NCBI GenBank assembly: GCA_025351745.1
Contig: JANXVI010000021.1
Span: forward strand, 1-37,929
Reading direction: 5' to 3'
DNA length: 37,929 nucleotides
Source: Rhodoferax sp.
GTDB lineage: Bacteria > Pseudomonadota > Gammaproteobacteria > Burkholderiales > Burkholderiaceae_C
Under the pieces are notes generated by a model. The model saw only the letters and a list, made by a program, of their open reading frames with translations. It made no database searches and was not told the DNA's origin. Positions within the stretch are counted from its first letter, which is position 1. Each line of letters opens with the position of its first letter. Position numbers and translations under genes: made by a program. Below are positions 124 through 36,986 of the stretch, one piece after another.

Positions 124-531
124 CTACTTTAGCAGGGATTGTTCGATTTCGATGATGACGAAGGCGATGGCGTAATCAGTTTCATCACTGACGGAGATAC
201 GCGCGTGCAAACTGCGCTCTTGCATCCATTGCAGCATATTACCGTTAGTCTGCACGACAGGCTGGCCCTGGTCGTTATTCAGCGTTTGCATGGCATGCCA
301 GTTCATTGGATCACGCATGCCCATGCCTACGGCTTTGGAAAAAGCTTCTTTTGCGGCGAACCGGGTAGCCAGATAACGCAGGCCGCGTGCCTCTACCAGG
401 GCTTTGCGTTCGTGGTAAATGACCAGCTCTTCTGGCCCCAGGATTTTTTCAGCAAAGCGTTCACCGTTACGCGCCAATGCATCTTGCATGCGCGAGATTT
501 GCACGATGTCGGTGCCTATGCCGTAGATCAT
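124..531 (-). CDS. acpS: Holo-[acyl-carrier-protein] synthase
   Basis: AcpS transfers 4'-phosphopantetheine from coenzyme A to the conserved serine of acyl carrier protein, making active holo-ACP in the cytoplasm. The 135-residue product has the usual size. It starts with the family signature [10 protein letters not shown], whose Asp8 binds Mg2+, and carries the second signature [10 protein letters not shown] near residues 58-67, with the metal-binding Glu. The ATG at 531 is preceded 8 bases upstream by a G-rich stretch (GTGGGGG) that belongs to a dispersed repeat and is the only Shine-Dalgarno-like sequence there. Its substrate AcpP is encoded about 13 kb away in the same window. Family assignment is secure. 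Confidence 0.96.
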
Positions 532-538
532 GTGGATT

Positions 539-620
539 GGGCCCCCACGCTCCGCCTCTGGCGCGGGTTGCTGCCCCCCGAAAATGCGCGTTTCGCCATG
601 GGACGGCCCAGCGGCGAAAC
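539..620 (-). repeat. GC-rich dispersed repeat, copy 1 (acpS-pdxJ gap)
   Basis: The gap between pdxJ and acpS is filled by a GC-rich element beginning GGGCCCCCACGCTCCG on the plus strand. Its first ~43 bases match the reverse complement of the element inside ppc at 35634-35701 almost base for base, including CCCCCACGCTCCG, CTCTG, CGGGT and GCTGCCCCCC. Its end lies 8 bp from the acpS start codon and may supply the ribosome-binding purines. Confidence 0.75.
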
Positions 621-628
621 CCTTGGCA

Positions 629-1387
629 CTAAGAGAGGCATTGCAGGTACGCCTTGACGGTGGCGGTGTAGCCCAGCTCCAACGCGTCGGCGATCAGCGC
701 GTGACCGATGGACACTTCATCCAGGCCCAGCACGGTATGCGCGAACTCAGCCAGGTTGTCGCGATTAAGGTCGTGACCGGCATTCACACCCAGGCCCACA
801 TCCAGCGCAGCATGCGCAGCGCGGGCGAAGCGCTGCAATTGCGCATCCTGTTCGGAAGTGCCCCAAGCTGCAGCGTAGGGTTCGGTATAAAGTTCGACGC
901 GGTCGGCGCCCACGGCCTTGACGGCGGGCATGGCAGCGGCGTCTGCGTCCATGAACAGGCTCACGCGCAAGCCCATGGCGTGGGCCTGGTCGATGAGCGG
1001 TTTTAAGCGCGCGGCATCTTGCGGAAAGGTCCAGCCATGGTCGCTGGTGAACTGGCCTTCGGAATCGGGCACAAAGGTAACCTGGTGCACCGGCAGCTTG
1101 CGCGCCACCAAATCGGCCACACATTCCATCAGGTTGTGAAACGGGTTGCCCTCTACGTTGTACTCGCGGTCTGGCCAATCCTTCAGCAACACAGCCAGGT
1201 CGCGCACATCGTCGGCACGGATGTGGCGCGCATCAGGGCGTGGATGCACGGTGATACCCGCAGCACCCGCTTGCAGGCAGAGTGTGGCCGCCTTGGTCAC
1301 GCTGGGAATACCCAAGTGCCGGGTGTTGCGCAGGTGAGCCACCTTGTTCAGGTTGACCGAGAGATTGATCTTGGATGTGGGAGTCAT
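629..1387 (-). CDS. pdxJ: Pyridoxine 5'-phosphate synthase
   Basis: PdxJ condenses 1-deoxy-D-xylulose 5-phosphate with 3-amino-2-oxopropyl phosphate to form pyridoxine 5'-phosphate, the last ring-closing step of DXP-dependent vitamin B6 synthesis. The 252-residue product is a TIM-barrel protein of normal length. Motifs seen are [12 protein letters not shown] near residues 13-24, [12 protein letters not shown] near 44-55, YNVEGNP, and the C-terminal GHALIADAL phosphate-binding region. The open frame extends 32 codons further upstream, but that part reads through repeat-like DNA and has no family similarity, so the ATG at 1387 ([12 protein letters not shown]) is chosen. The usual acidic/His residue in the first motif is replaced by Asn/Lys, which I believe is a normal betaproteobacterial variant. 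It sits between recO and acpS, as in many proteobacteria. Confidence 0.93.
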
Positions 1388-1398
1388 ATTGATTTTCC

Positions 1399-1495
1399 GC
1401 CGGGCCGCACCAAGGCCTCTGGACCGCTTGGCGGCCAGTCCAGCGAGGGAAAACGCACGCCCTTGGGGAGCAGCGCAGTACACGAAGTGACAAGC
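1399..1495. repeat. Decayed GC-rich repeat, copy 2 (recO-pdxJ gap)
   Basis: The gap upstream of pdxJ contains GGGCCGCACCAAGG and, further on, GCCCTTGGGGAGCAGCGCAG followed by TACACGAAGTG. These blocks occur in the same order as in the clearer copies at 13810-13881 (CGCCCCAAGG ... CCCTTTAAGGGGG ... TACACGC ... GAAGTG) and inside ppc. The spacing is less regular, so this looks like a diverged copy. Confidence 0.5.
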
Positions 1496-1510
1496 ATAGG
1501 GGCCATGTTC

Positions 1511-2260
1511 TTAGAGACTTTGGATGTCCATCATCATCTGGCGGGTACGCAGGGTTTTGACACCGCAATGGTAGTGCAGCAGCGTGCGCAACTGCGGCTT
1601 GAGTTCAGTGGCCACGGCAGCGCAAGCGCGCAGCGTCATGGTAAACGGCGCACGGTCTTGCAGCGCCGCTTGCAACGCGGTCCATTGCTCGCCGCGGAGG
1701 CTTGCGCGGTCATCGGCATGGGCCTGGCGCAAGCCGCCTTCGGGGACCAGGCAGTACGCGGCGTCAGGCTCTAGCGCGCCCAAAGTCATGGTCTGCGTAT
1801 TGAGCTGCGGCAGCAAGCCGATTTCGCGCAGCAGCAGCAATTCGTAAGTACGCAGCGCGGCCTGCAATGCCTCGCCATGCTCGCTGGCAAGGACGCGCAC
1901 CACATTGGCATAGACATCGAACAGGCCGGGGTGGGGATCGTCGCGCGCCAACAGGGTCAGCAGTAGTTCATTGAGGTAATAGCCTGACAGCAATGCATCA
2001 CCGGTGGGCATCACATGGCCACCCTGCCATTCGGCGCTTTTGAGCGTGCGGATCTCGGCATCGCCACCAAAGGCAACATGCAGCATCTGCAAGGGCAGCA
2101 GCACGGGGCGGAAGCTCGAACTGGGTCGCTTGGCACCCTTGGCCACCAGCGCAATGCGGCCGTAGTGCCGCGTAAAAACTTCCAGGATCAGGCTGGACTC
2201 GCTCCAGTCGTAGCGGTGCAGCACATACGCAGGCTCGTCAGCTATACGCTTGGTCGCCAT
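1511..2260 (-). CDS. recO: DNA repair protein RecO
   Basis: RecO works with RecF and RecR to load RecA onto SSB-coated single-stranded DNA at gaps, and anneals complementary strands. The 249-residue protein has the expected N-terminal OB-fold start ([21 protein letters not shown] with the phase-typical [13 protein letters not shown] following at about residues 34-46) and a C-terminal helical part. No zinc-binding cysteine cluster is evident, as is common in proteobacterial RecO. The ATG at 2260 gives the normal start. The gene lies between era and pdxJ, a widely conserved order (era-recO-pdxJ-acpS). A repeat element separates it from era, so co-transcription with era is likely but not certain. 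Confidence 0.94.
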
Positions 2261-13756: not shown

Positions 13757-13809
13757 ACGGGTCGCCGAACGGACAAATCGGCTGAACTTTGAGCAAGGGT
13801 TTACCGCCA

Positions 13810-13881
13810 GGCCGCCCCAAGGTGTGTCACGCCCCTTTAAGGGGGTAGTGAGCTACACGCAGCGAACGAAGTGGGGGGCAC
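13810..13881. repeat. GC-rich dispersed repeat, copy 4 (fabG-acpP gap)
   Basis: This well-preserved copy lies directly after the fabG stop. In order it has GGCCGCCCCAAGG, the palindromic CCCCTTTAAGGGGG, GAGCTACACGCAGCGAACG and AAGTGGGGGGC. It aligns along its whole length with the element in ppc at 35964-36030, which has CGCCCCAAGG, CCCCCTCGGGG, ACACGCC and GCGTGGGG in the same order. Confidence 0.8.
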
Positions 13882-13891
13882 CACACAATAA

Positions 13892-14638
13892 CTACATGTA
13901 CATGCCGCCGTTGACATGCAACTCTTGGCCAGTCACATAACCGGCTTGCGGCGAAGCCAAGTATGCAACAGCATGGGCCACATCGGCCGGTTTGCCGAAA
14001 TGGCCCAAAGGAATCTGACCCAACAAGGCTTTTTGCTGGTCTTCTTGAAGGCTTGCAGTCATGTCAGTCTCGATAAAACCAGGTGCCACGCAGTTGACGG
14101 TGATGTTGCGCGAGCCCAGCTCACGGGCCAGCGCACGTGTCATTCCAGCGACACCGGCCTTCGCAGCGGCGTAATTGGCCTGGCCGGGATTACCGGAGGC
14201 GCCAACCACCGAGGTGATGTTGATGATGCGGCCATAACGCTGTTTCATCATGGTGCGCATCACAGCTCGGCTCATGCGGAAGACGCCTTTGAGGTTGGCC
14301 TCCATCACGGAATCCCACTCGTCGTCCTTCATACGCATGGCGAGGTTGTCGCGGGTAATGCCGGCGTTGTTGACCAGCACCTGCAGGCCGCCGTGTTCTT
14401 TGACCAGTGCATCTACCAGCGCTTCACCTGCGGTCCCATTCGTCACATCCAGCGTGCGCCCTGCGCAGCCGGGAAAAGCGGACAAAGTGTCGGTGATCTT
14501 GGCAGCCCCCCCGTCGGTGGTGGCCGTACCAAAAACCTTCACACCTTTGCGGGCCAATTCCAGTGCAATCGCTGCACCAATGCCACGGGACGCCCCCGTC
14601 ACCAAAGCCACCTGGCCTTCAAATTTCACTTCAGTCAT
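13892..14638 (-). CDS. fabG: 3-oxoacyl-[ACP] reductase
   Basis: FabG reduces 3-oxoacyl-ACP with NADPH in each elongation cycle. The 248-residue short-chain dehydrogenase has the cofactor motif TGASRGIG (14-21), NNAG (90-93), the catalytic Ser143 (NITSVVG), Tyr156 and Lys160 (YAAAK), and a C-terminal GQELHVNGGMYM typical of FabG. The ATG at 14638 overlaps the fabD stop by 4 bp (14635-14638). It is followed by a dispersed repeat before acpP. Function is certain from motif set, length and cluster position. Confidence 0.97.
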   Translation of the reverse strand: MTEVKFEGQVALVTGASRGIGAAIALELARKGVKVFGTATTDGGAAKITDTLSAFPGCAGRTLDVTNGTAGEALVDALVKEHGGLQVLVNNAGITRDNLAMRMKDDEWDSVMEANLKGVFRMSRAVMRTMMKQRYGRIINITSVVGASGNPGQANYAAAKAGVAGMTRALARELGSRNITVNCVAPGFIETDMTASLQEDQQKALLGQIPLGHFGKPADVAHAVAYLASPQAGYVTGQELHVNGGMYM

Positions 14639-33931: not shown

Positions 33932-33992
33932 GGCCTAGTCGTCGTAACCTATTTGTAATCTATAGCGAGTGGGCAATGCTAGCATGGGCACC

Positions 33993-36986
33993 ATGAAAAA
34001 TGTATCTGCCCCAGCCCCCGCCAAGCGCGCGAAGGACAATGAACGCCCGCTGGTTGAAGACATCCGCCTGCTGGGCCGAATACTGGGCGATGAAATCCGC
34101 GAGCAAGAGGGCAATGCCGCATTTGAGCTCATCGAAAAGATCCGCACGCTGTCTGTCGCCTTCCGCCGCGATGCGGACCAGGACGCCGACAAGGCGCTAA
34201 AAAAATTACTGAAGAGCCTCAGCGGCGACCAGACGGTGAGCGTGATCCGTGCCTTCACCTATTTTTCACATTTGGCCAACCTGGCGGAAGACCGCCACCA
34301 CATCCGCCGCCGCGCCATCCACGAGCGCGCGGGTGACACGCAAGAAGGCAGCGTGGAAGTGGCCATGTCGCGCCTGCGCTGGGCCGGCATCTCTCCCAAG
34401 ACCATCTCCCATACCCTGGCCCAAAGCTATGTGTCGCCGGTGCTCACTGCCCACCCGACCGAAGTGCAGCGCAAGAGCATTCTGGATGCCGAGCGCGGTA
34501 TTGCGCGCCTGCTGACCGAGCGCGACGAGATCAAGATGCGCGGCGCTTTTTTTGAAAACAAAAAAGATGCGCTCACCGCACGCGAACTCGCTGCCAACGA
34601 AGCCCTGATGCGCGCACGCGTGATGCAGTTGTGGCAAACACGGCTCTTGCGCTTCAACAAACTGACCGTGGCAGACGAGGTCGAAAATGCGCTGAGCTAT
34701 TACGAATCGACTTTCTTGCGCGAGATCCCCAAGCTCTACGCCAACCTGGAGCAATTACTGGGTAACAACCAGCCGGTACATAGCTTTTTGCGCATGGGCC
34801 AATGGATTGGTGGCGACCGCGATGGCAACCCCAATGTCAGTGCGCAGACGCTGGATTACGCGCTGCGCCGCCAAGCCGAGGTGGCGCTGCGCCACTACTT
34901 GACCGAAGTGCATTACCTGGGGGGTGAACTGTCGGTATCCGCCATGCTCAACGATTGCACACCCGATATGAAGGCCTTGGCCGAAAGCTCGCCCGACCTG
35001 AACGTGCACCGGATGGATGAACCCTATCGCCGCGCACTAACCGGTGTCTATGCACGCCTAGCAGCGACGCTGCTAAAGCTCACCGGCACCGAAGCTGCGC
35101 GCCACGCCGTAGCGCCGCAAAACCCCTACGCGCGCTCCGAAGACTTTGCGTCCGAGCTGCGCACCATCGAGGCATCGCTGAAGGCCAACCACGGCTCAGC
35201 CCTGGTGGCAGAGCGGTTGCATCCGCTGATACGCGCGGTCGAGGTCTTTGGCTTCCATCTGGCAACCGTAGACCTGCGCCAAAGCTCGGACAAGCATGAG
35301 GAAGTGGTTGCCGAAATGCTGGCCACTGCACGCATTGAGCCCAACTACTGCAGACTGGACGAAGCCGCCAAGCGCACGCTGCTCATGGGCTTGTTGGGTG
35401 ACGCCCGCGCGCTGCAGGTGCACGGCGTCACCTACTCGGCCCACACGCAAGGCGAACTGGCTATTTTCTCCATGGCCAAGGTCATGCGTGAGCGCTTTGG
35501 CGAGAATGCCATCCGCCACTACATCATCAGCCACACCGAGACGGTCAGCGATTTACTGGAAGTGTTGTTACTGCAAAAGGAAGTGGGCCTGATGCGTGGC
35601 GTGCTCAACGAGAAGCCCATGCAACCCATATCGGGGTCGCCCCAGGTCGGGTTAGCCCCCTTGGGGGGCAGCGACCCGCACAGAGCCGGAGCGTGGGGGC
35701 CCGTGTGTGACCTGATCGTCGTGCCGCTCTTCGAGACCATTGAAGACTTGCGCAACGCCGCACCCATCATGCGCGAGCTTTATGCGTTACCGGGTATTGC
35801 CGCGTTGGTGCGGCGCAGCGGTGGCGAGCAGGACATCATGCTGGGCTACTCCGACAGCAACAAGGACGGCGGTATTTTCACCAGCAACTGGGAGCTGTAC
35901 CGGGCCGAAATCGCGCTGGTCGAATTGTTTGACGAAATGGCAAGCCACGGCTTAAGCGTCGGCGGGTCGCCCCAAGGCGCGAGAGCCCCCTCGGGGAGCA
36001 GCAAGGACACGCCAATGCCGAGCGTGGGGATCACATCAATCAAGCTGCGCATGTTCCATGGCCGTGGCGGTACCGTGGGGCGCGGAGGCGGACCCAGCTA
36101 CGAAGCAATTCTGGCCCAGCCCCCGGGCACCGTGCGCGGTCAGATCCGCCTGACCGAACAAGGCGAGGTGATTGGCTCCAAATACGCCAACCCCGAGATC
36201 GGTCGGCGCAACCTCGAAACCCTGGTCGCCGCTACGTTGGAGGCCACACTGCTGCAACCCACCAAATCGGCTACTCCAGCCTTTCTGGAAGCCGCGGCCG
36301 AACTCTCCCGCAACAGTATGGCAGCCTACCGCGCGCTGGTGTACGAGACCCCCGGCTTCACCGAATATTTCTTCAGCTCAACGCCCATCCGCGAAATTGC
36401 CGAACTGAACATCGGATCGCGCCCCGCGTCGCGCAAAGCATCACAACGCATTGAAGATCTGCGCGCTATTCCCTGGGGCTTCAGCTGGGGCCAATGCCGC
36501 CTGACCCTGCCCGGCTGGTACGGCTTTGGCTCGGCCGTGCAAAGTTTCATCACCTGCGGCACGCCAGCGGAGCAAAAAGAACGCATTGCCCTGCTCCAGA
36601 AAATGTATCGCCAGTGGCCGTTCTTCAAAACCTTGCTGTCGAACATGGACATGGTCATGGCCAAAAGCGATCTGGCGCTGGCATCGCGCTACTCCGAGCT
36701 GGTAGCCGATGCGCGGTTACGCAAGAAGATATTCACTGCAATTGAAGCCGAGTGGCACAGCACTGCCCAGGCCCTGTCCACCATCACCGGTGACAAAAAC
36801 CGCCTGGCCAACAATGCCGCGCTGCAGCGCTCCATCCGCCACCGCTTTCCGTACATCGACCCGCTGCACCACTTGCAGGTGGAACTGATACGCCGCTACC
36901 GCGCCGGTCAGGTCGATGAGCGGTTGCAGCGCGGCATACACATCTCGATCAACGGGATTGCGGCGGGTTTGCGCAATACGGGTTAG
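33993..36986 (+). CDS. ppc: Phosphoenolpyruvate carboxylase with two repeat-derived insertions
   Basis: PEPC carboxylates phosphoenolpyruvate to oxaloacetate, replenishing the TCA cycle. From the ATG at 33993 it has 997 residues, longer than the ~880 of E. coli. His154 lies in LTAHPTE, the signature YSDSNKDGG and the [14 protein letters not shown] catalytic loop are intact, and it ends with the canonical AAGLRNTG, so it is probably active. Two stretches absent from the family alignment I remember, at about residues 548-570 (starts GSPQ) and 658-680 (starts GSPQ), are encoded by two copies of a dispersed GC-rich repeat, both read in the same frame. A GTG at 33969 or ATG at 33984 are alternative starts. 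Confidence 0.95.
35634..35701 (+). repeat. GC-rich repeat copy 5, in frame inside ppc
   Basis: Starts GGGTCGCCCCAGG, contains the palindromic GCCCCCTTGGGGGGC, then CCGCACAGAGCCGGAGCGTG and GGGGCC. It is translated as [20 protein letters not shown] followed by WGP, between the conserved blocks [12 protein letters not shown] and [15 protein letters not shown]. The reverse complement of its second half matches the intergenic copy at 539-581. Confidence 0.85.
35964..36030 (+). repeat. GC-rich repeat copy 6, in frame inside ppc
   Basis: Starts GGGTCGCCCCAAGG, contains GCCCCCTCGGGGAGCAGC, then ACACGCCAATGCCGAGCGTG and GGG. It is translated as [20 protein letters not shown] followed by VG, between [10 protein letters not shown] and [12 protein letters not shown]. 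It begins in the same codon phase as copy 5, with 29 of the first 36 bases identical. Confidence 0.85.

Follow-up and report, generated by a model that had tools for sequence, protein, structure and literature searches.

A short structured repeat inserted in frame in two loops of phosphoenolpyruvate carboxylase and in other enzymes of a Rhodoferax genome

According to Ogata et al., the palindromic elements of Rickettsia (RPEs) are reportedly short repeats inserted in frame in unrelated proteins. Rickettsia is not the only group with such in-frame repeats: the passages on intragenic repeats in PMC3733652 describe REPs tagged with GTAG or CGTC that lie in frame in genes of free-living bacteria, including those of DNA polymerase I and of repair, with two insertions in one gene and insertions at about the same site of recB in two Xanthomonas species, and also list a Bordetella repeat among REP-like families without tags. 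The beta-proteobacterial repeat element (BRE), as presented in the section on genomic copies by Hot et al. 2011 (PMC3110155), is a GC-rich repeat of 75-91 bp that forms tandem groups in Betaproteobacteria, with hosts including Rhodoferax, Polaromonas, Acidovorax and Azoarcus, and some of its copies are wholly inside coding sequences.

The stretch of DNA analysed here (the window, 37,929 nucleotides) is an entire contig (C442) of a Rhodoferax sp. assembly of 5.10 Mb (498 contigs, 91.7% complete, 6.85% contaminated). Its phosphoenolpyruvate carboxylase (PEPC) gene encodes 1005 amino acids without a stop (Pfam PEPcase, E 0), and an earlier note had proposed that two copies of a dispersed repeat are inserted in frame within it, a proposal now borne out by empty sites in relatives and by dispersed copies elsewhere (see below). 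Both elements are indeed read in the same frame (GSPQ) inside one intact open reading frame (ORF), and alignment with solved homologues agrees with the claim that the conserved PEPC core around the inserts is kept. The limits first given to the elements needed correction: both elements are present, each starting 13 nt further 5' according to the model described below; the presumed shared start, GGGTCGCCCC, is part of a loop, and the 5' arm of the first stem (stem 1) had been overlooked. By themselves the short motifs tell little, GGGTCGCCCC with one mismatch having 5 occurrences versus 5.3 expected and GAGCGTGGGG 9 versus 4.2 expected (2 of 100 shuffles reach 9). A strict pattern applied to the assembly matches the two PEPC copies only, and the family emerges only with blastn or a model. 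The blastn likeness, which is independent of the model, amounts to 78% identity of the two elements over 66 nt (E 2e-6), and a search with element 2 gives 42 places in its own assembly at E<=10, the three best other copies at E 1e-15 to 1e-9. The alignment behind the model (R1) comprises 30 copies, of which 29 come from this assembly and one from the PEPC of a relative (truncated copy L023 being excluded from alignment A2). At E<1e-5 the model recognizes two copies in PEPC and three others in the window, five in all (Table 1).

Table 1. Features of the window. R1 scores of the two PEPC copies were obtained in the window and lean upward because both copies are among the 30 sequences of the model's alignment.
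Feature	Position	Strand	Remarks
PEPC gene	33969..36986	+	GTG 33969 or ATG 33993 start; hosts both elements
Element copy 1, PEPC site 1	35621..35701	+	Between helix and next strand of predicted model; R1 69.9 bits, E 7.7e-13
Element 1, stem 1, 5' arm	35623..35630	+	5/8 pairs kept (AACCC/GGGTT)
Element 1, stem 1, 3' arm	35646..35653	+	
Element 1, hairpin 2	35655..35669	+	GCCCCC/GGGGGC
Element copy 2, PEPC site 2	35951..36032	+	Directly before LRMFHGRGG; R1 68.3 bits, E 1.6e-12
Element 2, stem 1, 5' arm	35953..35960	+	6/8 pairs kept
Element 2, stem 1, 3' arm	35976..35983	+	
Element 2, hairpin 2	35985..35999	+	One pair broken
Third copy	540..622	-	Between ORFs 124-531 (-) and 629-1483 (-); R1 53.2 bits, E 1.9e-9
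Fourth, weaker copy	1389..1504	+	Overlaps 5' end of longest form of ORF 629-1483 (-), stops before ORF 1511-2260 (-); R1 38.1 bits, E 2.2e-6
Fifth, weaker copy	13796..13879	+	On 3' side of ORF 13892-14638 (-); R1 44.2 bits, E 1.3e-7

The element is a structured repeat of about 82 nt (82 model positions), the consensus of which consists of a variable 5' arm, GCC, a constant loop GCCGGGCCGCCCCAA, GGC and a 3' arm complementary to the 5' arm, followed by a hairpin GCCCCCTCGGGGGGC, AGCGA, a third part that varies and, as the constant end, AGCGTGGGGGC. The arms of stem 1 vary almost freely among copies with their pairing retained, and covariation of the stem is 0.271 in the 30 copies versus 0.102 when shuffled (reached by 0 of 500 shuffles) and at most 0.094 when the arms are slid; the values for 112 copies, in an alignment that was fitted to the structure and so leans to it, are 0.382 versus 0.148 (0 of 500) and at most 0.101. 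Single PEPC copies fold no better than shuffles (z -1.11 to 1.07, both strands), so that the structure is visible only by comparing copies. An origin of the 5' arm from host sequence, with the 3' arm copied from it, found no support, as the empty loci L107 and L100 are without both arms when compared with L104 and L094. How a freely varying yet paired stem is diversified, and why its pairing persists, is a separate question. The covarying stem would suit an element that is primarily a functional RNA, a small RNA or regulatory hairpin such as bprJ in Bordetella, with the coding copies as by-products, and the bprJ small-RNA region of B. pertussis holds a BRE copy according to the section on genomic copies in PMC3110155. 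This explanation is unlikely, given that 17 of the 61 genomes of the genus have no match at E<=1e-4, that genic copies lie in either orientation, and that Rfam gives 0 matches at E<=10 for positions 35500-36200; a role as RNA would nevertheless be compatible with mobility.

Beyond the window, the assembly has at least 132 matches at E<=1 among the best 150 of 2967 candidates scored, and 112 copies at E<=1e-3 in the 83 loci searched, a count that omits at least one tandem copy (C279:11401-11482) found in the wider scan at E<=1. Among the 112 copies, one pair (L155 and L232) is a single place that occurs on two contigs, and five pairs are in tandem (L169, L214, L223, L239 and L250), about 81-87 nt from start to start. 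At two neighbourhoods with element pairs, the surrounding genes look ordinary by eye. The assembly also contains a second, partial PEPC gene (L063; C469, 1-1848, minus strand) with 94% protein identity and a site 1 segment of 31 residues, on account of which the bin probably mixes two related strains. That the inserts are an assembly artefact, or PEPC a pseudogene, of a mixed metagenome bin might be argued from the 498 contigs, the 6.85% contamination and this fragment on C469, but is exceedingly improbable in view of the intact frame over 1005 residues, another metagenome-assembled genome (MAG, L067) with both insertions, and the same kind of in-frame copy on a plasmid of a RefSeq isolate.

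PEPC is one of many genes that the element has entered. With 187 long ORFs as its training set, a codon-periodic score that requires coding flanks on both sides (rule 1) places 23 of the 112 copies in frame, in 20 ORFs that all have a Pfam family. Under a second rule 23 of the 112 copies are in frame, 5 are frame-shifted, 1 contains a stop, 51 have coding sequence on one side and 31 on neither, and 1 lies between opposed genes; 22 in-frame copies are common to both rules (L248 only by rule 1, L021 only by rule 2). Where copies of at least 60 bits have coding sequence of the same direction on both sides, 13 of 18 are in frame and open versus 24% expected if frame were irrelevant (p 2e-5); the same test with weaker copies included gives 23 of 29 (p 5e-10), a less fair figure, since any chance match within a normal gene is bound to be in frame and so inflates the count. 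Low scores of 31-43 bits mark six of the 23 in-frame copies as possibly decayed or due to chance. The 23 copies use frames 0, 1 and 2 of the plus strand 2, 11 and 2 times and those of the minus strand 3, 3 and 2 times, and all six frames are still used by the 17 copies of at least 50 bits (plus 1, 6, 2; minus 3, 3, 2), the commonest frame in genes being plus frame 1 (GPPQG). Depending on which of the six frames is read, 61-92 of the 112 copies are open, and shuffled sequence of the same composition is open in 66%; openness is therefore about that of GC-rich DNA, with no special frame, and the earlier suggestion that the element is tolerated because one frame is stop-free has to be abandoned. 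The GC content of the 5' arm is 0.69 in in-frame copies versus 0.55 (p 0.001), which may also reflect gene composition.

The in-frame hosts are PEPC (two copies), EPSP synthase with cytidylate kinase, a molybdopterin oxidoreductase (second copy weak), a DEAD/HA2 helicase, Fmt, RelA/SpoT (two copies in opposite orientations), hydantoinase B, RecJ, an AAA ATPase with a zinc ribbon (RadA-like by reading), an M48 protease, a DUF2339 protein, an acyl-CoA dehydrogenase, PolA, a TonB receptor and a ComEC-like protein, together with RecQ-like, DUF3833, Mur ligase, CMAS methyltransferase and MurG-like glycosyltransferase proteins on weak matches (31-43 bits). These hosts include proteins of DNA replication and repair (PolA, RecJ, the weakly matched RecQ-like protein and the RadA-like protein by reading, in L226, L006, L255 and L227), as the passages on intragenic repeats in PMC3733652 report for other repeats.

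Comparison with other genomes, 37 of 41 of which have a PEPC match, shows the two PEPC sites both empty and filled. The closest named PEPC locus is that of a Rhodoferax MAG (L066), followed by MAGs labelled Burkholderiales, beta proteobacterium and bacterium, and then by more Rhodoferax. Among the aligned PEPC loci, the site 1 segment (KEVGL to the residue before DLIVV) reaches 44 residues only in the window and L034, with 30-31 in L035, L036, L037 and L063, 22 in L056 and 13-17 in the remaining rows. The site 2 segment has 39 residues in the window only; far from sharing an unrelated loop of equal length, most rows of the same genus have 11-15 residues there, L043 (= L065) has 19, and all six rows of other families have 7 (the partial L063 does not cover this site). 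The likeness of the inserts to other copies also holds. Most relatives are without both inserted loops, and the close relatives L066 and L068-L071 are without the site 2 element, whereas L067 has both insertions. In 80 named PEPC loci the model gives 24 matches at E<=10 and 14 at E<1e-3, of which 10, in 8 loci, are inside PEPC, all of them at sites 1 and 2, and the remaining four are upstream of PEPC (L135, L138, L127) or at its end (L097). The three upstream cases are Acidovorax loci, in which the copy (L135, 1318; L138, 1325; L127, 414) lies 100-200 nt before the matched part of PEPC. Site 1 holds copies in both orientations (plus in L066, L067 and the window, minus in L075, L094 and L103), and site 2 in plus orientation only (L067, L076, L094, L104, L126 and the window). 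All net insert lengths are multiples of 3, being 84 nt in 8 of 12 PEPC copies and 69, 78, 90 and 102 nt in the others, and pairs of filled and empty near relatives differ by 102 nt (L104/L107), 84 nt (L103/L109) and 69 nt (L075/L140).

Seven named relatives (L068-L071, L074, L088 and L097) have site 1 loops 11-14 residues above base length, where the model gives no match at E<=10, and the loop of fragment L063 is 15 residues longer with a sequence that the model does not recognise. Taken with short motifs that are about as frequent as chance or little more, the seven loops might suggest that loops grew natively by ordinary indels and that the likeness to a repeat is compositional (GC-rich DNA encoding Gly/Pro/Ser-rich peptide). 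Such growth is very improbable as the source of the PEPC inserts, which score E 7.7e-13 and 1.6e-12 with the model and have over 100 copies elsewhere; moreover, the minus copies at site 1 present the same DNA and a different peptide, so that it is the DNA that recurs and not the peptide.

On a tree of 81 rows built without the insert columns (partial L063 excluded), site 2 requires 6 changes and site 1 five (minus 3, plus 2), each of which may be a gain, a loss or an exchange, kinds that the tree does not separate. The extended site 1 loops, all but that of L088, belong to the nine-row clade of the window and are possibly one eroded old insertion. The minus copies of L075, L094 and L103 have a common left flank, GGCATYCTCAAYGAC, where sister species read like GGCACGCTGGA; this flank may be due to recombination or be an end borne by the element, and being unlike the sisters it suggests that the minus copies may have spread by recombination rather than by separate insertion. 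If each site had received one or a few insertions long ago, with later loss or erosion in most lineages and exchange between species by recombination, this flank and the long or extended site 1 in nine of nine rows of the window's clade would be accounted for, and the present pattern would be no sign of repeated insertion at these loops. This history is somewhat unlikely: plus and minus copies at site 1 entail at least two insertions, losses at site 2 must have restored the base length in many rows, and the inserts of EPSP synthase and Fmt are found here and in 0 of 11 aligned relatives each (those returned as loci, of 24 searched), one relative's EPSP synthase having 9 extra residues.

When six of the enzymes are aligned with solved homologues, the alignment breaks at the insert and the homologue has 0-4 residues between the blocks: 534/576 versus 495/500 of the homologue at PEPC site 1, 648/683 versus 569/572 at PEPC site 2, 112/143 versus 105/106 in Fmt, 457/485 versus 70/71 in PolA, 186/216 versus 208/209 in EPSP synthase, 231/263 versus 170/174 in RecJ, and 363/396 versus 326/330 for one of the two inserts of RelA, the other of which (about 137-164) is ahead of the aligned block and so outside the structural comparison. 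The loop position in PEPC rests on a predicted structure (44 alignment rows, mean pLDDT 78), the fold of which matches E. coli PEPC (TM 0.89 by target length). In this prediction the site 1 insert follows helix 518-531 and precedes strand 575-580, the site 2 insert follows helix 628-652 and precedes strand 684-689, and residues 542-567 and 655-680 are coil with pLDDT <50, a low value that may partly come from the few rows covering the inserts. Helix-to-strand loops of an alpha/beta barrel are on the face away from the active site, which would explain why inserts in PEPC are tolerated.

The element was detected at E<=1e-4 in 44 of 61 genomes of the genus, its own included, with the best 75 candidates scored per genome, so that high counts are lower bounds; the 17 genomes without a match at this threshold have 1.3-3.1 Mb, and several are incomplete. 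In the order Burkholderiales it is present in 22 of 200 genomes (own included) and 14 of 109 genera, with the best 23 candidates scored per genome. A plasmid-borne Fic protein (RefSeq) of the isolate Rhodoferax antarcticus contains an in-frame copy, and phage records searched with one copy as query gave no match at E<=1e-3. No candidate for a mobilising enzyme emerged, and apart from tandem copies no enriched flanking direct repeat or target duplication was seen in 111 of the 112 copies, the other one being too near a contig end. A Y1 transposase (e.g. G000:C412:2964-3290), often a single copy with a frame of about 240 amino acids, was considered and is unsupported as a partner: it has a match in 55 of the 61 genus genomes, including 16 of the 17 without the element, 5 element-bearing genomes are without it, and none of the nine Y1 loci examined has the element beside it.

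The best explanation, to which a probability of about 0.87 is given, is that the element is a short non-autonomous mobile repeat that acts like the Rickettsia palindromic elements and that its frame-keeping insertions in tolerant loops survive. The mobile unit would comprise a first hairpin, its loop constant and its paired stem variable in sequence, then the constant GCCCCC..GGGGGC hairpin, the variable third section and the constant end, and would spread through Burkholderiales genomes mostly outside genes, presumably moved by an enzyme acting in trans. After insertion in a gene, a cell line would persist only if the frame were kept, no stop were introduced and the loop were tolerant, purifying selection thus acting as the filter; surviving genic copies would be translated, adding a flexible stretch of about 27 residues to enzymes that still work. 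It is further conceivable, if quite unlikely as a whole, that the element is still active, that stem 1 is rewritten on moving (e.g. by copying one arm from the other, yielding new matching arms), that GC-rich arms make the copies that enter genes, and that the same tolerant loops of core enzymes are reseeded with new peptides in separate lineages. The differences among relatives at the two PEPC loops make it possible to test directly how an insert affects a central enzyme and how selection sorts such insertions.

By description rather than by sequence, the element is most likely the published BRE, with which it agrees in size (about 82 nt), GC-richness, tandem habit, hosts and genic copies; in-frame copies, empty sites and a covarying stem are absent from the section on genomic copies in PMC3110155. 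The open-licence literature consulted did not yield a covarying variable stem or empty-site evidence for this element, the use of six frames, its recurrence in different genera at the two PEPC loops, or one PEPC loop filled in both orientations. The tagged REPs, as their units are described in PMC3733652, are palindromes of 20-40 bp with a tag, whereas the element here is three-part and untagged, no GTAG or CGTC end tag being conserved in 30 and 111 copies, which have a variable 5' arm and end in AGCGTGGGGGC at the 3' side; unlike REPs with a RAYT, its copies are not beside a Y1 transposase gene at the nine loci examined. It shares with MITEs its shortness, its many copies and a presence that varies between relatives; apart from tandem copies, no target duplication was seen in 111 of 112 copies. 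From the RPEs it differs in its lineage, its free-living host and its size, about 82 nt versus about 150 bp as the portion of PMC10969869 on these elements gives it. The likeness to RPEs proposed in the earlier note is nonetheless upheld in effect, since both elements are inserted in frame in unrelated conserved proteins, and protein-coding mobile repeats are thereby extended to a group of free-living betaproteobacteria where a single element enters many core enzymes.
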